Below are positions 51,822-64,000 of a DNA stretch of 64,000 nt, in pieces. The first letter of the stretch is position 1. Each line of letters starts with the position of its first letter. The notes under the pieces were generated by a model that was not told where the DNA came from, did not search any database, and saw only the letters and a list, made by a program, of their open reading frames with translations. Source of the stretch: Pseudoalteromonas ulvae UL12 (lineage in GTDB: Bacteria > Pseudomonadota > Gammaproteobacteria > Enterobacterales > Alteromonadaceae); contig NZ_AQHJ01000035.1 of NCBI RefSeq assembly GCF_014925405.1, positions 620,001 to 684,000 of the forward strand, read 5' to 3'. The position numbers and the translations under genes are program-made.

Positions 51822-52018
51822 TCTTCGACCTTTGGATTCTTGCCCCCCCTACAATTAGGGAAGGAAAATAGAAAACCACTATCTATGATTAATTCAACTT
51901 TAACTATTCGAAATAGTGTTAGACATTACTAGTTTAGAATGAACAATCGGTCAACTTTATGGGCCGTATATTCATATTAACGGTCGTGTTTATTGTCTTT
52001 AATATCACGGAGGCGTTT

Positions 52019-52516
52019 ATGGCATCTCGTTCTAAAGGTGTTGGTTCAGTTGCTCCAAAAGAGCGAATTAACATATCTTATCGACCAGCGACAGGTGCTG
52101 CAAAGGAAGGCATCGAACTTCCCTTTAAAGTACTTGTTCTGGGGGATTTTACTCAAACCAAAGATTCAGAAACCACAGAATCACGTAAGCTGATTAATGT
52201 TAACAGCCACAATTTTGACGATGTCATGGAAGAGTTAAACCTCAAGGTCAATTTCAGTGTACCAAACAAGATGATTTCAGACTCAGATGAAGTGATAGAA
52301 ATCTCGCTTGATATCAATAAATTAAAAGACTTTGAACCGGATCAGATTATTGAGCAGGTAGATGAGTTAAAAAAAATCCTCGAATTAAGAGAAGCCTTAA
52401 AGTCTCTCAAAGGGCCTCTTGGTAACTCTCCTCAAATGCGTCGTCAAATTCAACGTCTGTTGGCCGATGAATCGTCGCGAAATGAGCTAAAAAAAGAAAT
52501 TGGCTTAGTTCAATAA
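52019..52516 (+). CDS. tssB: Type VI secretion sheath protein TssB (VipA)
   Basis: A 165-residue small sheath subunit. Signatures are VAPKERINISYRPATGAA, ELPFKVLVLGDFTQ and LDINKLKDFEPDQI. With TssC it builds the contractile sheath that fires the Hcp tube. The ATG at 52019 with ACGGAGG upstream matches the family; a frame start 20 codons earlier is spurious. First gene of the T6SS operon, followed by tssC after 24 bases. Confidence 0.97.
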   Translation: MASRSKGVGSVAPKERINISYRPATGAAKEGIELPFKVLVLGDFTQTKDSETTESRKLINVNSHNFDDVMEELNLKVNFSVPNKMISDSDEVIEISLDINKLKDFEPDQIIEQVDELKKILELREALKSLKGPLGNSPQMRRQIQRLLADESSRNELKKEIGLVQ

Positions 52517-52540: not shown

Positions 52541-53998
52541 ATGGCAACAACAGCAACGGCAACAAATTCGTCACTGATTGATGGGATACTCGCGTTTAGC
52601 AAAATTCCAGATGACGAAATCAGTTATTCAATCGCTTCAACTGGCATGCACTCATTATTAACCCGCATTTTTGAGCAAGAATCCGATACCAGTGAATTAC
52701 GCGTAGACAAACGATATGTAGAGCAATTGATTGATGAGCTCGATCGAAAGCTAAGTCTGCAAATGGATGAAATACTCCATCATCAGACATTTCAGTCACT
52801 TGAAGCCCCTTGGCGAAGTTTAAAATTTCTTATTGACCGCACTGAGTTTGGTGAAAACATTAAAGTCGAGATCCTCTCTGTCGATCAGGAAGAACTCTTA
52901 ACTGATTTTGAAGACGCCGCAGATATCACCGAAAGTGGTTTATATCGCAAAGTGTACACAGACGCATTTGGACAATTTGGTGGTAATCCATATGGAGTCA
53001 TTATAGGCGACTACAGCCTAACGCATGGTAATAGTGATGTCACACTGATGAGCCATCTGGCAAGCCTCGCAGCGATGAATCACGCACCCTTTATTGCTGC
53101 CGCTGATCCGAGCTTTTTTTGTATCAAAGATTACGCTGAAATTCCTGATTTAAAGCAAATTGAGGCTATGTTTGAAGGGCCGCAATACATTAAATGGCGC
53201 CAATTTAGAGATTCTGATGATGCACGAAATGTGGGTTTGGCGATGCCAAGATTTATGCTCAGACCAACTTATGGCGAAAATATACCCGTAAGAAGTTTTA
53301 ATTATCACGAAGGTATTACAAGTCAAAATCAATACCTTTGGGGCAATGCGGCCTTTGCATATGCGACTAAGCTAACCGACAGCTTTGCACGTTACCGTTG
53401 GTGTCCAAATATTATCGGCCCTCAATCGGGTGGTGAAGTAAAAGATTTGTCTATCAACTTAGTTGATGACAGCGGCACAGCAAAAGTCGTCGGGCCGGTT
53501 GAAGTTCAATTATCCGATCGCAAAGAATTTGAATTATCAGAGCTTGGCTTTATTCCTTTTACACTTCGAAAAGATTCAGATAGTGCAGTGTTTTTCTCGT
53601 CTAATTCGGTACAAATGCCGAAGAAGTTTAGTAATGATGATGAAGGTAGACAAGCCGAACTCAATTACAAACTGGGCACACAATTGCCGTATTTATTTAT
53701 TGTCAATCGCTTAGCTCACTACATCAAAGTATTGCAAAGGGAAAATTTAGGAAGCTGGAAAAGTCGAAGCGACCTAGAAATGGAACTTAATAAATGGATA
53801 CGCCAATACGTTGCAGATCAAGACAATCCTTCCCCTGCAACCCGTAGCCAACGACCACTCAGAAAGGCTTTGTTAACAGTTACTGAAGTTGATACTGAAG
53901 CTGGCTGGTATGAAGTTTCAATGGAAGTGACGCCTCACTTTAAGTTCATGGGCGCGAACTTTACCTTGTCGCTAACCAGTATGCTTGAGCGTGGTTAA
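52541..53998 (+). CDS. tssC: Type VI secretion sheath protein TssC (VipB)
   Basis: A 485-residue large sheath subunit with FRSL-type core LEAPWRSLKFLIDR, AFGQFGGNPYGVIIGDY, LWGNAAFAYATKL and VTPHFKFMGANF. The N-terminal helix SSLIDGILAFSK is in the place where ClpV binds VipB. The full-length form with an intact N-terminus contrasts with the later TssB-TssC fusion at 60796. Pairs with TssB. Confidence 0.97.
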   Translation: MATTATATNSSLIDGILAFSKIPDDEISYSIASTGMHSLLTRIFEQESDTSELRVDKRYVEQLIDELDRKLSLQMDEILHHQTFQSLEAPWRSLKFLIDRTEFGENIKVEILSVDQEELLTDFEDAADITESGLYRKVYTDAFGQFGGNPYGVIIGDYSLTHGNSDVTLMSHLASLAAMNHAPFIAAADPSFFCIKDYAEIPDLKQIEAMFEGPQYIKWRQFRDSDDARNVGLAMPRFMLRPTYGENIPVRSFNYHEGITSQNQYLWGNAAFAYATKLTDSFARYRWCPNIIGPQSGGEVKDLSINLVDDSGTAKVVGPVEVQLSDRKEFELSELGFIPFTLRKDSDSAVFFSSNSVQMPKKFSNDDEGRQAELNYKLGTQLPYLFIVNRLAHYIKVLQRENLGSWKSRSDLEMELNKWIRQYVADQDNPSPATRSQRPLRKALLTVTEVDTEAGWYEVSMEVTPHFKFMGANFTLSLTSMLERG

Positions 53999-54047: not shown

Positions 54048-54566
54048 ATGCCTACAGAAATTTATATGACTATCAATGATCCTGAAGGATGTCTAACAGA
54101 AGAGTCTTGCTCTAAAGAAAGCATAGGGTCATTTTTTAAATCAGATCATGAGGAAGAAGCATTAGTGCTTGCTTACAATCATAAAGTGTCAGTGCCTACT
54201 AACTCCCTAACAGGTCAAGTAACTGGGACGCGAAAGCACGAATACCTTGAAGTTACCAAGTTTATAGATAAAAGCTCACCGCTATTATTAAACTCTGTTA
54301 CTTCTCCCTCTGAGCTCGAAGTAATTCTGAGATTTTTTAGAACGCCTGATGAAACGAGCGCGGGTGAGCCTGTAGAGTATTACAATATTACTCTACAGCG
54401 TGCGAAAATTGTTAGTATCAATACGATTTCACCAAATATCTTGATTCCTGAAAATGATGGATTAATGCCGTTTGAAAATGTCATTTTTACCTATGGTCAA
54501 ATCCAAGCGGATCATGTTGTGTGTGGTACTACAGCAATTGATGATTGGTCAGGTGAAGGTGAATAA
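54048..54566 (+). CDS. hcp: Hcp family tube protein (TssD)
   Basis: A 172-residue Hcp-type protein that should form hexameric rings of the inner tube. Family features are the N-terminal YMTINDPEG, a long loop, LEVTKFIDKSSPLL, YYNITLQRAKIVSI and the final ENVIFTYGQIQADHV. GAGGAA precedes the ATG. It lies between tssC and tssJ, a normal place for hcp. A second, divergent copy is at 62490. Confidence 0.92.
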   Translation: MPTEIYMTINDPEGCLTEESCSKESIGSFFKSDHEEEALVLAYNHKVSVPTNSLTGQVTGTRKHEYLEVTKFIDKSSPLLLNSVTSPSELEVILRFFRTPDETSAGEPVEYYNITLQRAKIVSINTISPNILIPENDGLMPFENVIFTYGQIQADHVVCGTTAIDDWSGEGE

Positions 54567-54572
54567 ACCAAC

Positions 54573-55310
54573 ATGATAATTAAACTATTGAGTTTGCAAC
54601 GGCTTATATTACTTTTGTTGATGATTGTTTCGTTAACTGGTTGCAGTAGCATTCCTTTTTTTGGTGATGATGCAGCTGCAGGTAATGTAAGCCAAACTGT
54701 TGCTTACGCGGATCCAACCCAAAAAGACCATTGGCTTGAAAATGCTAAGGCTTGGCGGAACTGGGACATAAATCATCCGAATAATCAATTGGTTGAATGG
54801 GTATATAATGAAGCTGCACTCATTATTACTTTATCTGCAAGCAGTGAACTCAATAGTTTTAATGATCTCGCTCATATGACACAAATTAGAGTGATCCAAC
54901 TAAGTGATATCACAGGCTTAACGACGTTACTAAAAACTCAAGATGGGGTGCGAACTGCGATGGTTGAACCTTTAGAAATGCTGCCCAATGCTATATCTAT
55001 CGATACTGTTAATTTAGCGCCAAACCAAACATACACCATTGAGCTTGCGCGTCAGCAAGATGCAAAATTTATTGCTCTTGTTGCTGGATTTGCTCAATCG
55101 CAGCCGCAGCAATCGGTCAGAATAATTACGATACCAGTGATTACTATCAGTCCCCCAGAGGTAGAAAAATCGTGGTTTGATACTCTCACTTTTGGTTTGT
55201 TTTCAGAGGACTCAGAGCCAGAACCAGACATAATACGACCAGCAAAACTTAAAATTGACAGTAAATTAGGTGAAAACGAATTTGAGAAGTTTGTAGCTAA
55301 AGCATTTTAA
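54573..55310 (+). CDS. tssJ: Type VI outer-membrane lipoprotein TssJ
   Basis: A 245-residue lipoprotein with signal peptide ending in LTGC (C24). It has the beta-sandwich pattern VEWVYNEAALIITLSASSEL, IRVIQLSD and an extended C-terminal tail. TssJ anchors TssM to the outer membrane. At about 245 residues it is longer than many TssJ proteins, the extra part lying at the C-terminus. Starts seven bases after hcp. Confidence 0.88.
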   Translation: MIIKLLSLQRLILLLLMIVSLTGCSSIPFFGDDAAAGNVSQTVAYADPTQKDHWLENAKAWRNWDINHPNNQLVEWVYNEAALIITLSASSELNSFNDLAHMTQIRVIQLSDITGLTTLLKTQDGVRTAMVEPLEMLPNAISIDTVNLAPNQTYTIELARQQDAKFIALVAGFAQSQPQQSVRIITIPVITISPPEVEKSWFDTLTFGLFSEDSEPEPDIIRPAKLKIDSKLGENEFEKFVAKAF

Positions 55311-55328: not shown

Positions 55329-56699
55329 ATGGATCCTTTAAAATCCTTGTTCTGGAATCAAGGCTTATTTCTAAAACCACAGCATTTCCAACATTTATCT
55401 TTGCAAACTTTGGCTCAAGCACACGCGTATAGCTCTATCAAAACAGGAATAGTCTCAGGGATCGCAAGCCTTAATATTGATATTCCTTCGTTGCAAAATG
55501 GTGTAGTACAAATTCATAAACTAGAGGCTGTTTTACCTGATGGAACCTTATTAGTATTTCCAGGTAACTGCTCATTAAACTCTTTATCAATTACTGCCGA
55601 TTTAGCGGACAAAAATAATCTTATATCGATTTATATCGCAGTTTGCCCTATCTCAATCGATAGCAATAATTTAAGTCACCCTAATCGTGGTATTGCTCGG
55701 TATGTCGAAAATGAAGCAGCTGAAGTGATTGATTTATTTGATACAGAAGAGTCAACACAACTGACAACCCTCAACATTGATACGGCACTTATCAGTGAGA
55801 ATGAGCTTGCCAAATATAACCATTGTGCATGCATAAAAATTGCCGCAATATCGAGCCAATCTGGCGTGTTTTGCTTAGATACAGATTTCATCCCACCCGT
55901 AATATCCATCGCGTCTTCGGTTGTTTTACAAGATAACATTAAAGGGCTCAAACAAAGTTTGTTAGCTCGCTTTGAACAGCTTGAAAGTTTTAGTTCCCTA
56001 AAAGGTGGTCAGCATACTGAACTTTCAAGTGCTAGTTTATCGACATTGATGGCACTGAATATAGTTGCGGGCTTTATACCTCAAGTCGCCCATTTTGAAG
56101 AGTGTAAAGAGCAATCTCCACAACAGTTTTACATGCTGTTACGTCAACTTATTGCTCAGTTAAGTTTATTTTCTAGGAATATTTCTGTACTTGGAGAAAG
56201 TGCTGATGAAGGGCATTCCATTATTCCATTCAATCAAAATAACCTCACAGCTTGTTTTTCTAGAGCTTTTAAAATGGCGAGTAAGTTGCTCGATGAATTA
56301 ACCATTGATCCTGAATTACTCATTGAATTAACACAACAAGGTGAATCGAAATTTGTAGCGACTTTACCACCTGAGTTTTTATCTCATACAAACCGGTTTT
56401 ATCTAAGATTAAGAAGTAAAGATAACCTCGAGACACGAGTTGATGAGATTTTGGAATACTCAAAAATGGGTGCTGATGGCCAAGTTGATATTTACATTAA
56501 AAGGGCCTTGCCTGGGGTTAAACTTCACTATTTATCAAGAAAACCTTTAGGTGTCGCCAGTGCACCCAATAGCTATTATTTTTCATTTGATACGCATAGT
56601 TTTGAGTGGCAGAAGGTATTAGAAACTACTCGTGTTGGTTTGATTTGGCCTGATGGTCCAAATGATCTTCAAATAGAAATTATTGCGGTCAAGGGGTAA
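55329..56699 (+). CDS. tssK: Type VI baseplate protein TssK
   Basis: A 456-residue TssK. The N-terminus LKSLFWNQGLFLKPQHFQHL is diagnostic. It links the baseplate to the TssLM membrane complex as a trimer. TAGGAG precedes the ATG, and tssL starts four bases after its stop. Confidence 0.95.
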   Translation: MDPLKSLFWNQGLFLKPQHFQHLSLQTLAQAHAYSSIKTGIVSGIASLNIDIPSLQNGVVQIHKLEAVLPDGTLLVFPGNCSLNSLSITADLADKNNLISIYIAVCPISIDSNNLSHPNRGIARYVENEAAEVIDLFDTEESTQLTTLNIDTALISENELAKYNHCACIKIAAISSQSGVFCLDTDFIPPVISIASSVVLQDNIKGLKQSLLARFEQLESFSSLKGGQHTELSSASLSTLMALNIVAGFIPQVAHFEECKEQSPQQFYMLLRQLIAQLSLFSRNISVLGESADEGHSIIPFNQNNLTACFSRAFKMASKLLDELTIDPELLIELTQQGESKFVATLPPEFLSHTNRFYLRLRSKDNLETRVDEILEYSKMGADGQVDIYIKRALPGVKLHYLSRKPLGVASAPNSYYFSFDTHSFEWQKVLETTRVGLIWPDGPNDLQIEIIAVKG

Positions 56700-56702
56700 T
56701 GT

Positions 56703-57362
56703 ATGAAATTAATCGACGCATTTATTCCTATTTTTTCAGAACTGTCCACTCTTGATCAGAAGCTCGAAGAAGACTCATCTTTGGATATCGAGATGTTATC
56801 AGATCAATTGTCTCAACAGATAGCCCATAGCAAAAACACTTTGTTGGCTGAAGGCTTTGAGATTGACGATTTTGATAAAGCCTTATTTGCATTATGTGCC
56901 CTTATTGATGAAAAAGTAATGAACTCACAATGGGCCTCTCGTGAACGTTGGGCTAAAAACACACTCCAGAAACAATATTTTAAGAGTCAAACTGCAGGGA
57001 CTGTTTTTTTTGAAACATTAGATCAGCTAAATGAGTTTAATGAAGTCGAGCAAAATATTCGTGAGGTTTATTTGTACTGTTTAGCCTTTGGTTTTACAGG
57101 TTGTTATTTTGATGTGGGTCAGCGGAGCCGTTTAGACGAAATTATTCATGCAAACTTTAAACTCTTAAATACACAATCAGAGTTGAGTTTATTTTGCCAC
57201 AAAGTGCCACAAAAAAGGCAACTCTTGGACGACAACCTGCTATTTAGTCAGTTTAAAGATGAAGTATGGGTATGGGGTCCCATTGCTTTTGTTTTAATCA
57301 GTTATTTGTTGTTTAGAAGTGAGTATTTAACTTCATTATCTCAGTTAATCAATCAGCTATAA
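56703..57362 (+). CDS. tssL: Type VI membrane protein TssL (DotU)
   Basis: A 219-residue DotU-like protein: a cytoplasmic helical domain (FALCALIDEKVMNSQW, LYCLAFGFTGCYF) and one C-terminal membrane helix (VWGPIAFVLISYLLF). No peptidoglycan-binding domain is fused, so anchoring must come from other parts of the locus. TssL binds TssM and TssK. tssM starts 16 bases downstream. Confidence 0.95.
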   Translation: MKLIDAFIPIFSELSTLDQKLEEDSSLDIEMLSDQLSQQIAHSKNTLLAEGFEIDDFDKALFALCALIDEKVMNSQWASRERWAKNTLQKQYFKSQTAGTVFFETLDQLNEFNEVEQNIREVYLYCLAFGFTGCYFDVGQRSRLDEIIHANFKLLNTQSELSLFCHKVPQKRQLLDDNLLFSQFKDEVWVWGPIAFVLISYLLFRSEYLTSLSQLINQL

Positions 57363-57378: not shown

Positions 57379-60300
57379 ATGAAAAGTTTCTTAAAGTTTA
57401 TGTTGGTGATGTTTATTTGGCTCATTGTATTAGGTATTTGTATTACCACAACGGTATTACTTGAACTTGAACTTATGCTGGGTATTTGGGCATTTGTTGC
57501 GGTGTTCGCAACTTGGTATGGCATAAAGTTAATTATCTACTTCTTCAAACGGGTAGCGGCTAAAAATAGAGTTGAAAAACTCATTAATATAGGCTCCAGT
57601 AGTTCATCTAAAAAAACTCTTTCCTCTTTTCAATTTTTATTCAAAAAAGATATCGATAAACACCTCAATAAACTGCAGGCATTTATTAAACGCAGTGATA
57701 TCAGCTCAGCTCACTCCATTAAATGGGTGATGCACTTAAAAGTCGATAATTCTGATGGTAACTGGGTTAAAGCCTCGTCAATTAATAGACCAAAAATCAA
57801 AGACAGCACGTTAACCGAATACCCCTACATCGATTGGCATATATTTAATGACTTTATGATGCTTGATGTCGATGCATATTTGATTTCTCAAGATAATCCC
57901 GCAGCCAAAAGTGAATGGTTGCAATTATTAAATGGTCTGGCAGGCACTAAAAGAGTGTTTCCAATCGACTCTTTATTAGTCTCAATTAATGTCAGTGCTA
58001 TTGAAACCATCATTGAGCAGCAAAAGCTTGCTGATTTAATCAGAACTCAATATGAAGACATCAAAACATACTGCGGTGTAGAGATAAAAATTAATATTGT
58101 GTTGGTTGGTTTAGAGCAATTAAGTGGCATTGATTCTTGGCTAGCTAATTTGGATCCATTTCTCAAGCAAAAAATGTTTGGGTCTATCAATGAAAATCAA
58201 ATCCCAATTGAGCAGTTAGTCAAAGAGCATTTTGCTGAATTAAAAGTAATCTTCAATCAAGGGGCTTTATCACATCTTGTTAATGAGGGGTTTTCTGTTG
58301 AAGCAGCTCAACTTCCTGCTAAGGCAAATGAGATAGAGCAGTCATTGTCCCGGTGCTTAAATCGCTTATTTGCAAACAACTCTTTTCAATCGGCACCGAA
58401 GTGCAATGGCCTTTTTATTGTGATGCGAGAGCACACAGATGATTGTTTTGTTGATGGCTTACTTGAGGGTTGCGCCTTCACTTGGAGTGATGCAGTCAAA
58501 AATAAGGTGATAACACAATCGGATATAGTGAAGCGTAAAAGGTATATCACTTATGCAGGTGCCAGTGCTTTTTTAGTTGGTTTGATTTTTCTTACATTTG
58601 AGCGAAACATCACCACACTGGATGCTGTGTTCGAAGATTATAAAAGTCAGCAGCTGAATTTAGATTCACAATCAGGGCTTTTGTCTGACATTACGCTTCG
58701 TTATTCAATTATTGAGCAGCTAAATTCACTGAATATCAGCCACTGGTTACCGACTGGAAACGATCCGCTTAAGTTGAATCTGATGCGAGCCAATGTAATC
58801 AATAAAATTGAAAATGGGATTATTTCGCCTCTTGATGAAAAGTTTGCTTCCAACATGCAAGGAAGTGAATTGTCACTTGATAAACGAGTCGATTATATCA
58901 ATATTTTATCGAGAAGAATCAATTTGATAAAAGCGGCGCAAAGTGGTGCAAATAATGACGAATTAGCCTTGATGCCGCAGCCCTATGATTCTGGATATAT
59001 CAGCGATATTCCAAATGAAATTTTAGATGATATTAATCAGGTTTATCTTCTGCGTTTTTCGCTTATCTCATCTTCTTTAAATTCACGACATTCAGCCAGC
59101 CTTGAGACTGAAAAGCAGAATTATCAAAAACAAGTCGTTAATTTATTAAGCCAAACAAATGACAATATGGAGTGGTTAGTCGATTGGGTTAACGAAAATC
59201 AATCAATAAAAAATGTGACGTTACAAAGCTACTGGCAAGGCACGTTACCAAATACTTCAGGGATTGAGGTACAAAAAGCGTATACCGTGGCAGGGAAAGA
59301 AGTCATTGATAATTTCTTTAATGATATCACTCAAGCGCTGGGCCAAGATAATGATTATTTACTTAAGTACAAACCGTTATTTGTTCAAGATTATCGGGTA
59401 AATTATTTAGCTAATTGGGGGTATTTTTTATCTGAATTTGAACAAGGTCAATTCACCCTAGCTGATCGCACGCAATGGTTAAAAGTCATTAATAACCTCA
59501 CCACAAGCCGTAATATTTATTTCAAATTATTGAACGATGTGGACTTTCAATTAGCAGCATTCAAAGATGATGCAGATGTACCTAAATGGATGGAGTTTTC
59601 ACTTTATTACCAAGACATGTTGGCGCTGAGTGACGACCAAGTAAATAATAATAAAAAGAAAAATGCTGTTTTAACTAAGCTAGCTTTGAAAGTCATTGGT
59701 AAAACAGGTGCCGTAGGCAAAGCTATTTCAAAATCAGCAAAAAGTGGCTTGAAAACACAGAAAAAGCTCGATAAAGCCAATGGTTCAGGCCCAGGCCCTT
59801 CAGAAAGAGAGCTAAACCTTCAAAAAGCGGCGACTGAGCTTGATAATTACAAAGCAAAATTAGCTGAAATAGTATTTAGCGTTGAGCTAAAACAGTCGTC
59901 CTATACAAGTATAAGTGGGCTTTATTCGAACAGTGATAACCCGATGTCTGCCGGAACATCTCTGGCTGCGGTGCAAACGAGTTTAGCAACCCTACAAGGT
60001 TTAATAGGCAAAGAAGGGCTTGATACCGCACCTTTTTGGAAAGTGTATAAAGGACCCGTCCAATTACTTGAGTCTTTTATGACACAAGAAACAGCGTGTA
60101 AATTGAATGATCTTTGGCAAGAAAAGTTCCTGTTTGAGATTGATGGTGTTCCTGATTATAAATTAGATAGTTACGCCTATGGAGAGACGGGTGTTTTATG
60201 GGGAATGGTCGACAGCAATATCGCACCGTTTTTACGCGCAAAACAAGGGGGAGGATATAGCCACAAGCGCGTAGGAGATAATTACGTTGCGCTAACTCCC

Positions 60301-60792
60301 GCCTTTTTAAATTATCTGACTCGTGTTAAAGATTTTGGGATGAGACAGAAATTTGAGTCGTTTAGCCTCGACATTACAGCTAATCCGACGAGCTTGAATC
60401 CAAGTGCTCTTTTATATGTGAGCCAAACGGACTTGGTTCTCAATTGTGCCTCTGGGCCACAATCATTAGTGAATAATAATTTTATTATTAAAAAACACTT
60501 TGCCTGGGATCAAAGCTGTGGACCGGTTTCTTTATCGTTCACTATCGGGAACAAAAAAATAGTAAAAGAGTATCCCGGTCAAGATGGACTTACTCACTTT
60601 ATGGAAGATTTCAAATCGGGCAAAAAACGTTTCGAGCTAGAAGAATTTCCAGAGTCATTTTATGTGCTAGATCAGTTCAAAATTCGCTATCTGGATGCCA
60701 GTTTTATCTTAGAAGGAGCAGGCAAGCTATTATCATCACTTAATCAGCAGCCACCACAGCCACCTAAATTTATCGCTCAATGTTGGAAATAA
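57379..60792 (+). CDS. tssM: Type VI membrane protein TssM (IcmF) without Walker A motif
   Basis: A 1137-residue IcmF-like protein. Two N-terminal membrane helices (about residues 5-55) come first, then a cytoplasmic domain, a third helix (about 389-407, ITYAGASAFLVGLIFLTF) and a large periplasmic part with the ImcF-related domain near the end. The cytoplasmic NTPase-like domain has no GxxxxGK[ST] loop; WVMHLKVDNSDGNWV stands where it would be expected. It forms the trans-envelope channel with TssL and TssJ. ATP hydrolysis is therefore unlikely for this member. Confidence 0.92.
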   Translation: MKSFLKFMLVMFIWLIVLGICITTTVLLELELMLGIWAFVAVFATWYGIKLIIYFFKRVAAKNRVEKLINIGSSSSSKKTLSSFQFLFKKDIDKHLNKLQAFIKRSDISSAHSIKWVMHLKVDNSDGNWVKASSINRPKIKDSTLTEYPYIDWHIFNDFMMLDVDAYLISQDNPAAKSEWLQLLNGLAGTKRVFPIDSLLVSINVSAIETIIEQQKLADLIRTQYEDIKTYCGVEIKINIVLVGLEQLSGIDSWLANLDPFLKQKMFGSINENQIPIEQLVKEHFAELKVIFNQGALSHLVNEGFSVEAAQLPAKANEIEQSLSRCLNRLFANNSFQSAPKCNGLFIVMREHTDDCFVDGLLEGCAFTWSDAVKNKVITQSDIVKRKRYITYAGASAFLVGLIFLTFERNITTLDAVFEDYKSQQLNLDSQSGLLSDITLRYSIIEQLNSLNISHWLPTGNDPLKLNLMRANVINKIENGIISPLDEKFASNMQGSELSLDKRVDYINILSRRINLIKAAQSGANNDELALMPQPYDSGYISDIPNEILDDINQVYLLRFSLISSSLNSRHSASLETEKQNYQKQVVNLLSQTNDNMEWLVDWVNENQSIKNVTLQSYWQGTLPNTSGIEVQKAYTVAGKEVIDNFFNDITQALGQDNDYLLKYKPLFVQDYRVNYLANWGYFLSEFEQGQFTLADRTQWLKVINNLTTSRNIYFKLLNDVDFQLAAFKDDADVPKWMEFSLYYQDMLALSDDQVNNNKKKNAVLTKLALKVIGKTGAVGKAISKSAKSGLKTQKKLDKANGSGPGPSERELNLQKAATELDNYKAKLAEIVFSVELKQSSYTSISGLYSNSDNPMSAGTSLAAVQTSLATLQGLIGKEGLDTAPFWKVYKGPVQLLESFMTQETACKLNDLWQEKFLFEIDGVPDYKLDSYAYGETGVLWGMVDSNIAPFLRAKQGGGYSHKRVGDNYVALTPAFLNYLTRVKDFGMRQKFESFSLDITANPTSLNPSALLYVSQTDLVLNCASGPQSLVNNNFIIKKHFAWDQSCGPVSLSFTIGNKKIVKEYPGQDGLTHFMEDFKSGKKRFELEEFPESFYVLDQFKIRYLDASFILEGAGKLLSSLNQQPPQPPKFIAQCWK

Positions 60793-60795
60793 TGA

Positions 60796-62490
60796 ATGGA
60801 TAAATATCAGGATATTTCTTTCATCCATAATACTGAGGGTAACTTACCTTTTCGGGTGCTCGTTATTGCTCCGCTTTTAACTGAAAGAGAGAGTGATTAT
60901 CAGCTTATTCCATTTGAAATTTCAGAGGAAAGCTTTTCGAAGGTGATGGCAAGTTTAGACATCTCGATTACTTTAGATTTGGAAATATCGCGTTTATGTC
61001 AATTGTATAATGTTGAAAACCAGTATTTCACAATAGAGTTTGATATTAATAAGCTCAGTGACTTTTCGCCATATTCAATTATTACGAATGAGCCAAACTT
61101 AGCAGAAATACATGACTTGATCGCTCAGATACGCAGTGCGTTACAGCAATCTCATTTTCATTTTTATGCAAAGCAGTTTCATTGCTCACAACTAAAATTG
61201 TCACTATTTAATCAGGTTGAAGTCAAAAGAGCTGAATTAGAATGCTTAGTATGTGAGCTAGAATCTGTTTTATCCGAGATTTTAGATACTATTTTACACC
61301 ATCCTAAATGGCAGAAAATGGAGTCTGCATGGCGAGGGGTTGCTTGGTTAACTCAAGCCTCTTCAGCTGAAGATAATTGTCAGATAGATTGCATCTCATT
61401 TAACCTTGAACAATTGCGTGAAGATGTCTGTGATAGCTCAACTGCAAATGACAGTGATTTATATCAACTACTTTATAGAGACAGTCTTGGTCAGTTTGGT
61501 GGGATCCCCTATGGGTGTGTTTTGCTAGATTATGCTTTTTCACGTAATGGGACAGATATTGATTTTTTAAAAAAAATCAGTGAGGTATGTGCATTAGCGC
61601 ATGTCCCACTTATAAGCGGTGCATCAGCAAGCTTGTTCGGAGCCAATCAATATCAGGATATAACCGAGCACTCGAATTTAACTGAACTGTTTTCCTCACC
61701 TCTGTATATAAAATGGCGTAGCTTTTCACAATCTTTAAGTGCGCGCTATGTTTGTTTGACCTTACCTCGAATTATGATTAGACGACCGTATTCTCAAGAA
61801 GTAACAACTCTAGATTGGTATAAAGAACAAGTGGGTGAAAACTTAGAGAGCTGCTTGTGGACGAATGCTGCTTTTGCTTTTACACATAATTTGATTAAAA
61901 GCTTTATAACACACGGCTTTTGTAGCGCATTGGTTGGGCTTGAAGGCGGCGAAATAACATTACCCCTTCAAACTTGCCCAACTTCGTCATTGCCAGTCGA
62001 ATTAGTGTTATCCGAAACCAAAGAAGCTGAACTGGTTAGTTTGGGTTTTAATCCAATCTGTAGTCGATATTACTCAGGGCAATTACTCTATCAAAGTGCC
62101 AATTCAGTCGCTTGGTATCATGTCAGTCAATCATTTGAGAATCAAACCGCGACTACGATGGCTGAAGCTCAATTACAGTATTTATTTATTGTCTTGCGGA
62201 TCATTCATTGTTTAAAAATATTAACGCGAGAGAATATCGGATCATTTAATACTAAATTGGAGCTCAATAGTTTTATCAATAATTGGCTTCGTCAGTTTGT
62301 TTCAGATGTCGCCTTACCGACTCAAGCGGTTCAGGCTCAGAGACCTTTGAAAGATGCATCAGTGACGGTGAGAGAGGCGACGGATATGAATTGGTATGAT
62401 GTTGACATTGTGCTTACGCCGCATTTTAAGTTTCTAAATGAAACGGTGACCCTTGATGCACAACTTAATATTTCTCATAAGGAGCTATGA
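60796..62490 (+). CDS. Fused TssB-TssC sheath-like paralogue
   Basis: A 564-residue protein covering both sheath subunits in one chain. Residues about 15-125 resemble TssB (LPFRVLVIAPLLTERES, FDINKLSDFSPYSI, then a helix QIRSALQ). Residues about 150-564 resemble TssC (HHPKWQKMESAWRGVAWL, LGQFGGIPYGCVLLDY, CLWTNAAFAFTHNL, IVLRIIHCLKIL, VLTPHFKFLNETV). The separate TssC's N-terminal ClpV-binding helix has no counterpart. It lies inside the locus next to a second Hcp-like gene, starting three bases after tssM. It could form a special part of the sheath, a baseplate-proximal ring or an accessory structure; no function is proven. Confidence 0.85.
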   Translation: MDKYQDISFIHNTEGNLPFRVLVIAPLLTERESDYQLIPFEISEESFSKVMASLDISITLDLEISRLCQLYNVENQYFTIEFDINKLSDFSPYSIITNEPNLAEIHDLIAQIRSALQQSHFHFYAKQFHCSQLKLSLFNQVEVKRAELECLVCELESVLSEILDTILHHPKWQKMESAWRGVAWLTQASSAEDNCQIDCISFNLEQLREDVCDSSTANDSDLYQLLYRDSLGQFGGIPYGCVLLDYAFSRNGTDIDFLKKISEVCALAHVPLISGASASLFGANQYQDITEHSNLTELFSSPLYIKWRSFSQSLSARYVCLTLPRIMIRRPYSQEVTTLDWYKEQVGENLESCLWTNAAFAFTHNLIKSFITHGFCSALVGLEGGEITLPLQTCPTSSLPVELVLSETKEAELVSLGFNPICSRYYSGQLLYQSANSVAWYHVSQSFENQTATTMAEAQLQYLFIVLRIIHCLKILTRENIGSFNTKLELNSFINNWLRQFVSDVALPTQAVQAQRPLKDASVTVREATDMNWYDVDIVLTPHFKFLNETVTLDAQLNISHKEL

Positions 62491-62975
62491 TGGAATGCTC
62501 TGGGTATATGGTTGTCAGTGGTAAGAATCAAGGTCAGATTGATGGTTCGTCTTTAAGGAATAAACGTGAAAATAAAATCAATCTATATTCATTTTCGCAC
62601 TGCGTAAGTGCTCCGTTTCAAACACATAAAAACATTAGTAATGGCTCTGTTGTTCATAAGCCAATTGATATTTTAAAAGAGATTGATAAAAGCACGCCAA
62701 AACTCTATCAAGCTCTAGTAGAAAAAGAAGAATTGGATATAGAGTTTCATTGGTACCGATTTAATGAGCGAGGGGTCGAAGAACTCTATTACAAAGTCAT
62801 CCTGACCCATGCGCATTTGACGGCTATTTCACCTTTTATGCCCAACCCTAATAACGCAAGCAGTGACACAACAAGGTTTATGGAAACAGTCACAATTGCT
62901 TATCAAAAAATAAAATGGGATTGGGGTCCCCACGGCGATATCACATTCGAAACCGATTGGCGGAATGACTCATAA
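62490..62975 (+). CDS. Second Hcp-like protein
   Basis: A 161-residue divergent Hcp. It keeps the Hcp pattern INLYSFSHCVSAPF, VVHKPIDILKEIDKSTPKLY, LTHAHLTAISPFMP and a final YQKIKWDWGPHGDITFETDW, typical of the Hcp core. It differs from the first Hcp in most positions. The second of two adjacent ATGs (62490) is best spaced from AAGGAG; the first overlaps the fusion gene stop. It may be an adaptor or specialised tube ring paired with the fused sheath protein. Confidence 0.85.
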   Translation: MECSGYMVVSGKNQGQIDGSSLRNKRENKINLYSFSHCVSAPFQTHKNISNGSVVHKPIDILKEIDKSTPKLYQALVEKEELDIEFHWYRFNERGVEELYYKVILTHAHLTAISPFMPNPNNASSDTTRFMETVTIAYQKIKWDWGPHGDITFETDWRNDS

Positions 62976-63367
62976 TGCTTCGTTTAACTGAAAGACTTAA
63001 CTTTTTAGACTCACAGCATGATATGTCTGATGATCAACCATTATTGATAGAACAATCGATATGTCATTATTTAGCTAATATTCTCAATACCCGAACAGGC
63101 AGTGTGGCAATTACGCCTCATGTTGGCATGCCAATAATGAATTTAAGTACGGCAGGGAGGCACTCTGATGAGTTAATTGCTTACATCAAAAATCAGGTGC
63201 TAGAGGGTGAATTAAGAATAAAGCAATTTGAAACCATCAGTATATCAAACACTATCAGCAATGCTTTGGTGGCGTTTACCGCTAAAATACAGTGCTATGA
63301 TTTATCGACGTTTAAATGCCAAATTAAAGTCAGGCTCGATAATACAGTTGAGGTCTCGCTACTATGA
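62975..63367 (+). CDS. tssE: Type VI baseplate protein TssE (gp25-like)
   Basis: A 130-residue gp25/TssE protein with SICHYLANILNTRTGSVAIT, a GMP-IMNL core and the helix-strand ending YDLSTFKCQIKVRLDN. It starts sheath polymerisation at the baseplate. It overlaps both neighbours by 1-4 bases, showing tight coupling. Confidence 0.93.
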   Translation: MLRLTERLNFLDSQHDMSDDQPLLIEQSICHYLANILNTRTGSVAITPHVGMPIMNLSTAGRHSDELIAYIKNQVLEGELRIKQFETISISNTISNALVAFTAKIQCYDLSTFKCQIKVRLDNTVEVSLL

Positions 63368-64000
63368 GTTCATTAGATAAGCTATATCAAAAAGAATTGA
63401 AACTACTAAAAAGCTCGGCGCAAGTATTTAGTGAGCAACACCCTGCATTAACTGAACATTTAGCGAGGCAAAGTAATGACCCTGATGTGGAAATGATTCT
63501 ACAAGGGGTTGCGTATTTAAGTGCGCAGTTTAAGCAAGAGGTGGATAATGCATTTCCTCAAGCGATACAATCTTTATCACAAGTGTTAACTCCGACGCTT
63601 ATGCAGCCTTTGCCCAGTGCTGCAATCCTTTCGTTTAAACCAAAGACTAATCTGCTCAAACCCATGCTAATTGAAGCTGGAAAGTGTTTCGATTCTGAAC
63701 CTGTGGGTTACAACACTTCCAAACAACATTGTCGTTTTACAAACAGTTGGCCCATTGAAGTGCTCCCCATCGAACTGAACACGGTGACAACAAAATTAGC
63801 CGATAAACTTCATGACTCGCAAAACCAACGTGTTATCCATTTGAAGTTTGACTTTGATGCCAGTCGCAACGATATTGCAAATTATGAGTTTGGTAAACTG
63901 AGGCTTCATTTAAACCAAGCCTTACCCGATGCCAGTTTATGGTTATTAATGTTTGCCCGAAACGTCAATGGGATCGTTATAAAAGATGATATCGGGGAAC
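63364..64000 (+). CDS. tssF: Type VI baseplate protein TssF, truncated by the window edge
   Basis: The visible 212 residues start MSSLDKLYQKELKLLKSSAQ and include FSEQHPALTEHLARQSNDPD and VDNAFPQAIQSLSQVLTPTL, the TssF (VasA) N-terminal signature. TssF normally has about 580-620 residues and forms the baseplate with TssE, TssG and TssK. The gene runs off the right end. tssG, tssH (clpV), vgrG and tssA are not in the window and presumably follow. Confidence 0.9.
   Translation, partial: MSSLDKLYQKELKLLKSSAQVFSEQHPALTEHLARQSNDPDVEMILQGVAYLSAQFKQEVDNAFPQAIQSLSQVLTPTLMQPLPSAAILSFKPKTNLLKPMLIEAGKCFDSEPVGYNTSKQHCRFTNSWPIEVLPIELNTVTTKLADKLHDSQNQRVIHLKFDFDASRNDIANYEFGKLRLHLNQALPDASLWLLMFARNVNGIVIKDDIGE

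Follow-up and report, generated by a model that had tools for sequence, protein, structure and literature searches.

The sheath of a type VI secretion system (T6SS) is formed by TssB and TssC (VipA/VipB). Both genes are present in the locus at the end of the window (the whole stretch of 64,000 nucleotides of Pseudoalteromonas ulvae UL12 that was analysed), and a further gene of the same locus joins TssB and TssC in one chain. Why would a T6SS with the normal pair keep a second, fused sheath protein?

The operon is arranged as tssB, tssC, hcp1, tssJ, tssK, tssL, tssM, the fusion, hcp2, tssE and tssF, at which point the window ends. Beyond it, as read in locus L016, follow tssG, two vgrG genes, a DUF2169-pentapeptide gene, a pentapeptide gene, DUF3540, a PAAR-like gene and HAMP-SpoIIE. 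The fusion starts 3 bases past the tssM stop and its own stop overlaps the start of hcp2. The separate canonical tssB and tssC reported in the initial annotation are indeed part of this operon, which in the window comprises:

51959..52516, + strand: canonical tssB (Pfam, NCBIfam)
52541..53998, + strand: canonical tssC, N-terminal helix retained (Pfam, NCBIfam, alignment)
54048..54566, + strand: hcp1, presumed main tube, 99% identical in genome G103 (Pfam, identity comparison)
54573..55310, + strand: tssJ (Pfam)
55329..56699, + strand: tssK (Pfam)
56703..57362, + strand: tssL (DotU) (Pfam)
57379..60792, + strand: tssM, divergent (Pfam, NCBIfam)
60796..62490, + strand: TssB-TssC fusion, second sheath protein, 564 aa without internal stop (Pfam, NCBIfam, AlphaFold and PDB profile matches)
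62487..62975, + strand: second hcp (Hcp2), in a clade of its own (Pfam PF05638, TIGR03344, tree)
62975..63367, + strand: tssE (gp25-like), below curated cut-offs (Pfam, NCBIfam)
63364..64000, + strand: tssF, running past the window end (NCBIfam)

The products of tssJ, tssM and tssE miss their NCBIfam cut-offs, a sign of strong divergence. A scan for promoters and terminators gave sites no more numerous than in shuffled sequences. Between genomes G000 and G103, Hcp1 (99%) and the PAAR-like protein (L016:17510-17920, 97%) are nearly frozen; TssB and TssC excepted, the remaining parts are 48-63% identical. In genome G490 (L058:893-14903) the module of DUF2169, pentapeptide-like, DUF3540 and PAAR genes is tandemly doubled, with another VgrG in between.

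The fusion is a single uninterrupted ORF, in which it departs from the two-chain protomer of the T6SS sheath. Its parts are as follows:

60808..60828, + strand: donor arm at the N-terminus, YQDISFI, probably corresponding to the N-terminal strand of TssB (alignment of 10 fusions and 8 TssB; low model confidence)
60832..61131, + strand: TssB/VipA core, residues 13-112 (Pfam PF05591; family profile matches PDB TssB chains)
61132..61212, + strand: stretch found where TssB has its C-terminal GPLGN region and TssC its N-terminal ClpV-type helix (alignments)
61213..62454, + strand: TssC/VipB part, residues 140-553 (TIGR03355 over cut-off; Pfam)
62146..62436, + strand: gp25-like domain and hairpin, residues 451-547, putative acceptor of the arms that the overlying ring sends down (relative constraint equal to that of canonical TssC; geometry from excerpts of PMC5813253 and PMC10457771)
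62437..62475, + strand: C-terminal donor arm, residues 548-560, relaxed (conservation analysis; low model confidence)

Pfam matches VipA/TssB at residues 13-112 (E 1.8e-6, 28.3 bits against a cut-off of 24), VipB at 151-438 (E 4.5e-84) and VipB_2 at 451-554 (E 3.8e-28). Among the NCBIfam models, TIGR03355 for TssC is passed (347.2 against 271.5 bits) and TIGR03358 for TssB matches below its curated cut-off (27.3 against 97.25). Identity to the proteins of the window itself amounts to 27% over 102 columns for TssB and 35% over 431 columns for TssC. A profile built from 30 fusion sequences matches 9 distinct TssB sequences in the PDB (E 1.8e-16 to 1.2e-9), and the AlphaFold model, with a pLDDT of 59 in residues 1-10, supports a predicted sheath fold. 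The gene was initially read as a TssB-like N-terminus followed by a TssC-like remainder (now placed at about residues 140-554), and this architecture, including the TssB fold of the N-terminal part, is borne out. The TssB match stands as well, but the motif quoted for it as ELPF reads NLPFRVLV.

Aligned with the window's TssC, the fusion has nothing that corresponds to the N-terminal TssC segment and its LIDGIL helix, exactly as had been noticed at first sight. The GPLGN motif of the TssB C-terminus occurs in none of 10 fusions against 6 of 8 TssB sequences (the TssB of G579 and G490 reads GPIGN). Overall, the fusion shares with the TssB/TssC pair both domains, the predicted fold and the locus; it differs in being one chain, in lacking the helix and the GPLGN motif and in its faster evolution, and it is present in addition to the normal proteins.

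The linker between the N-terminal arm and the core also differs, being shorter in the window's fusion than in the local TssB. This bears on the possibility that the fusion is an interspersed or inhibitory subunit, tuning the contraction of the ordinary sheath: three residues added to the N-terminal linker of VipA render the V. cholerae sheath non-contractile (PMC5813253, in excerpt). We regard such a role as quite improbable. Linker length varies among fusions, and the shortening seen in the window's lineage is offset by longer linkers in G274, G237, G444, G517 and G1039; moreover, such a role would not account for the link with hcp2 and tssE.

Fusion genes were identified in 10 genomes (G000, G103, G274, G237, G444, G517, G579, G490, G1039 and G1104). 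At genus level 2 of 108 genomes matched both halves, at family level 4 of 295, at order level at least 5 of 394 (among the matches listed), at class level 3 of 369 (where two more had an ordinary TssC match only) and at phylum level 1 of 398. The window's own genome is counted every time and the samples overlap; the counts are lower bounds, with at most three candidates scored per genome in order, class and phylum and at most four in the family. E limits were 1e-75 for the order search and 1e-130 for the class and phylum searches. At least 30 fusions, recognized by length (556-595 aa) and coverage and including the window's own, occur among the 120 protein clusters listed of 392 found, and 29 of the 30 carry a precomputed VipA domain. 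Protein searches with the N-terminal part alone returned 2 and 1 proteins. Two scans of genome contigs, among which near relatives of the window are possibly absent, yielded no fusion, and an ordinary TssC alone was met in an Amphritea MAG. In a plasmid collection, 436 records match the fusion protein, none of them covering 80% of its length. A single match of 1.5 kb (75.6%) in that collection points to Pseudoalteromonas.

The gene order tssM-fusion-hcp2-tssE is conserved in all 10 loci, which answers with yes the initial question whether the fusion always stands beside tssM and a second hcp. A canonical tssC lies in the same locus in nine cases; the contig of the tenth (G1104) starts within tssJ. 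Four sister-type loci (L030-L033, 19-20 kb each) contain no fusion and at most one hcp. In a different T6SS, several genomes of the genus (G050, G039, G048 and others) show two TssC matches with starts approximately 1.5-1.6 kb apart, which are apparently tandem tssC genes.

Trees of the TssC part place the fusions together. In a tree of 33 rows, 8 fusions form one clade and their 8 canonical partners another (100/99 each); the two main subgroups of both clades match, although the finer order differs. In a tree of 55 rows, all 28 fusion rows (10 from the genomes and 18 of the 30 proteins) are found on one side of a branch supported by 100/99, 9 canonical partners are grouped more weakly (81/83), and four single-gene TssB-TssC rows, from other loci, group separately (100/100) outside the fusion clade. 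The 10 Hcp2 rows likewise form one clade (100/100). Because the fusion rows make up one clade apart from the canonical partners, the fusion is, judging by these trees, an old paralogue passed down with its T6SS.

Selection could be measured in a single pair, G579-G490, where dN/dS is 0.096 for the fusion and 0.075 for TssC, which is purifying; in the pair G444-G517 the fusion is saturated. Given the same architecture in 10 genomes and this purifying selection, it is very unlikely that duplicates of tssB and tssC were joined only recently. A frameshift or assembly artefact, the possibility on which the first interpretation could have foundered, is excluded by the full-length relatives in the 10 genomes, by the at least 30 fusions among the 120 listed clusters and by the purifying selection. 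The fast divergence of the fusion might suggest a decaying duplicate without function, but this is scarcely credible: the dN/dS of the measurable pair, the identical position in 10 of 10 loci and the single deep clade all speak against it.

The pace of divergence was compared over eight loci (28 pairs, which are not independent). Slow parts are TssC with a mean identity of 70% and Hcp1 with 67%, together with the PAAR-like protein (80%) and TssB (62%; 21 pairs each for the latter two). Fast parts are the fusion (42%), Hcp2 (48%), TssE (37%), TssF (44%) and TssG (44%), and TssJ, TssK, TssL and TssM are equally fast (39-44%). In all 28 pairs the fusion is less identical than TssC and Hcp2 less than Hcp1; the fusion falls below TssF in 15 of 28 pairs and below TssG in 20 of 28. 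The fusion therefore keeps pace with the baseplate and membrane parts and not with the ordinary sheath and tube. Since TssJ, TssK, TssL and TssM diverge as fast as the fusion, the rate is no pointer to the baseplate in particular; the slow PAAR-like protein, although located at the spike, runs counter to an argument from baseplate rates.

A further comparison concerns the contacts between sheath rings. From each sheath subunit two arms extend to the neighbouring ring on the baseplate side; for the first ring, TssE has been proposed as their acceptor (PMC5813253, in excerpt). In phage XM1 the acceptor is the C-terminal domain of the lower ring (PMC10457771, in excerpt). As the arms run towards the baseplate, a first ring should keep its acceptor and may alter its arms. 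By the same geometry a distal cap should show the opposite, and a complete alternative sheath should keep both.

Conservation was measured within each family over pairs with 40-62% core identity, which are not independent. The ratio of C-arm to core identity is 0.58 for the fusions (28 rows, 136 pairs) against 1.11 for ordinary TssC with the canonical partners counted in (132 pairs) and 1.02 for the partners alone (6 pairs). Within the two stand-alone control groups, of 6 and 2 pairs respectively, it is 1.35 for the single-gene sheaths (leaving out the divergent G323 and truncated G129 rows) and 0.82 for another TssC group. The C-arm is the least conserved stretch of the fusion's TssC part. 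The gp25-like domain shows no such relaxation: its ratio to the core is 1.21 in the fusions, in the canonical partners and in ordinary TssC including these partners, 1.18 in the single-gene sheaths and 1.40 in the other TssC group. The N-terminal stretch, whose alignment is uncertain, follows this tendency: identities are 27% against 30% in the core within the fusions and 70% against 55% in TssB. A drop of the C-arm relative to the canonical consensus was discarded as a test, being equal or larger in stand-alone sheaths (ratio 0.34 for the fusions; the two stand-alone groups compared give 0.22 and 0.34); because this drop is unspecific, only the within-family measure discriminates.

A constrained acceptor combined with a relaxed C-arm is what a starter ring next to the baseplate should show, and agrees less well with a distal cap or a complete second sheath. 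We consider it somewhat more likely than not that the fusion forms the first sheath ring (initiator), with the adjacent hcp2 encoding the matching first tube ring. In this model TssE/TssF would carry six copies of the fusion and hold their arms, and the first ring of canonical TssBC would insert its own arms into the gp25-like domains of the fusion. Hcp2 would seat on the VgrG hub and initiate the Hcp1 tube. With TssB and TssC in one chain, their ratio would be fixed at 1:1 and the ClpV handle would be gone; where a lineage has ClpV, the starter ring would thereby escape the recycling that the shaft undergoes. A point against the starter ring is that TssE is already the initiator in known T6SSs.

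The presence of both a sheath and a tube paralogue, with donor as well as acceptor parts, could also be explained if the fusion and Hcp2 formed a second, alternative complete tail on the same baseplate, the more so as a single-gene TssB-TssC is seemingly the sole sheath gene in other stretches. Such stand-alone sheaths nonetheless keep their C-arm (1.35 over 6 pairs, as opposed to 0.58 over 136 pairs in the fusion family), and each locus shows one set of baseplate and membrane genes. We therefore judge an alternative tail unlikely.

A different suggestion comes from the genes that accompany the fusion. TssA (PF06812, ImpA_N) was found in 0 of 8 fusion genomes tested and in 4 of 4 sister genomes; TssA forms without an ImpA_N domain would escape the model. 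ClpV (TIGR03345) over cut-off gave the same figures, 0 of 8 and 4 of 4; the 8 genomes are related members of one lineage, and one of them (G517) is 82% complete. An Amphritea sister locus has TssA as well as ClpV over cut-off. In the window's genome the best match of the ClpV model is ClpB and no match reaches the ClpV cut-off; a second Clp-type match lies in a frame of 757 aa. An extra Clp ATPase of 828 aa is encoded in G490 (L067:1798-4284; 944.6 bits with the ClpB model and 668.9 with the ClpV model, below both cut-offs), and G579 has a similar match.

These absences would agree with the fusion and Hcp2 acting as a distal cap or terminator in place of TssA. The 8 genomes represent one lineage, however, so that the joint absence of TssA and ClpV may be a single event. 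Moreover, G1039, a basal relative from another order of the class, encodes TssA (TIGR03362, 387.6 against 230.1 bits) and ClpV (1177.7 against 884.95), both beside tssB, tssC, hcp1 and the fusion in one locus. Since fusion and TssA occur there together, the fusion is not simply a TssA substitute; it is compatible with TssA and ClpV, whose loss looks later. Strict replacement of TssA or ClpV as the origin of the fusion is ruled out by the same genome. The donor arms of a cap should also match the sheath ring below, whereas the C-arm of the fusion is relaxed. A cap is consequently an improbable reading. The initial annotation had proposed a baseplate collar or an end-cap; the collar agrees with gene order, rates and the arm/acceptor pattern, and the end-cap is disfavoured by the relaxed C-arm and the TssA of G1039.

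The accompanying proposal of a non-recycled sheath variant survives in part. Escape from ClpV is ruled out as the reason for the fusion in the window's genome, where no ClpV match exceeds the cut-off, but it could apply in G1039, which encodes ClpV and a helix-less fusion. The canonical TssC of the window, G103, G274 and G237 retains the ClpV-type N-terminal helix in genomes with no ClpV over cut-off, where ClpB is a conceivable reader of it. A broader scenario, which we put forward tentatively and at less than even confidence, is a T6SS subtype with a dedicated fused sheath starter and a tube starter, in which the solution of extracellular contractile injection systems (eCIS) would have been reinvented in a membrane-anchored machine. 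With such starters TssA and ClpV would have become dispensable; one lineage would have lost them, and its shaft would be recycled by ClpB or not at all.

In the antifeeding prophage (AFP), afp4 and afp5 are adjacent. With eCIS Cis4 (Afp4/Pvc4) and Cis5 (Afp5/Pvc5) the present pair has in common that an extra sheath paralogue is paired with a second tube protein; the fusion is found instead in a membrane-anchored T6SS. Excerpts of PMC12210884 name Cis4/Pvc4 and Cis9/Pvc9 as sheath initiators, which attach to initiator tubes; deleting any one of these proteins stops particle production. AFP has sheath proteins Afp2-4, tube proteins Afp1, 5 and 7 and the cap Afp16 (PMC12961389, in excerpt). By hypothesis, the fusion/Hcp2 pair may work like Cis4/Cis5. 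Judged by sequence comparison the fusion is not a member of the Cis4 family, and no eCIS sheath chain is among the 19 PDB sequences matched by the fusion-family profile at E up to 10. The early comparison of the fusion, as a specialized minor sheath paralogue, with the multiple sheath proteins of eCIS is thus upheld indirectly, through gene order, rates and arms.

A joined tssB-tssC is not unique to this locus type, as other single-gene TssB-TssC proteins show. Nine such genes occur in T6SS-like loci L034-L036, L039-L041 and L043-L045 (genomes G126, G228, G139, G262, G150, G187, G323, G184 and G129) and encode 520-797 aa, G129 being the one without a VipB_2 match. These share with the fusion that TssB and TssC are in one gene, but here it is the sole sheath gene seen, 7 of the 9 have a nearly full-length TssB match, and the four tested fall outside the fusion clade. 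ClpV and TssA queries found no match in the 20 kb stretches around the nine genes. In loci L037, L038 and L042, TssC measures 630-663 aa and its VipB domain begins at residues 210-247, as against 62 in the TssC of the window; a separate TssB-like gene adjoins.

The Francisella-type T6SS is comparable in that no ClpV is used; it is not known to have a fused second sheath protein. In F. novicida the sheath is disassembled by ClpB (PMC5481754, in excerpt). A natural TssB-TssC fusion is not mentioned in the excerpts of PMC5048182, PMC3840085 and PMC5614524, which cover the literature only partly.

Little is resolved of how the baseplate of a T6SS starts sheath and tube: the map of the V. cholerae baseplate, at 8.0 A, is too coarse for details of the sheath-baseplate connection (PMC5813253, in excerpt). 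Summarizing, the fusion is real, old and under selection, and we infer that it is most likely a baseplate-proximal starter subunit. If so, a natural system with a separate starter ring of sheath and tube would make initiation accessible in isolation, to genetics as well as to structural work. The system would also provide a natural single-chain TssBC protomer, and T6SSs that seemingly work without TssA and ClpV.
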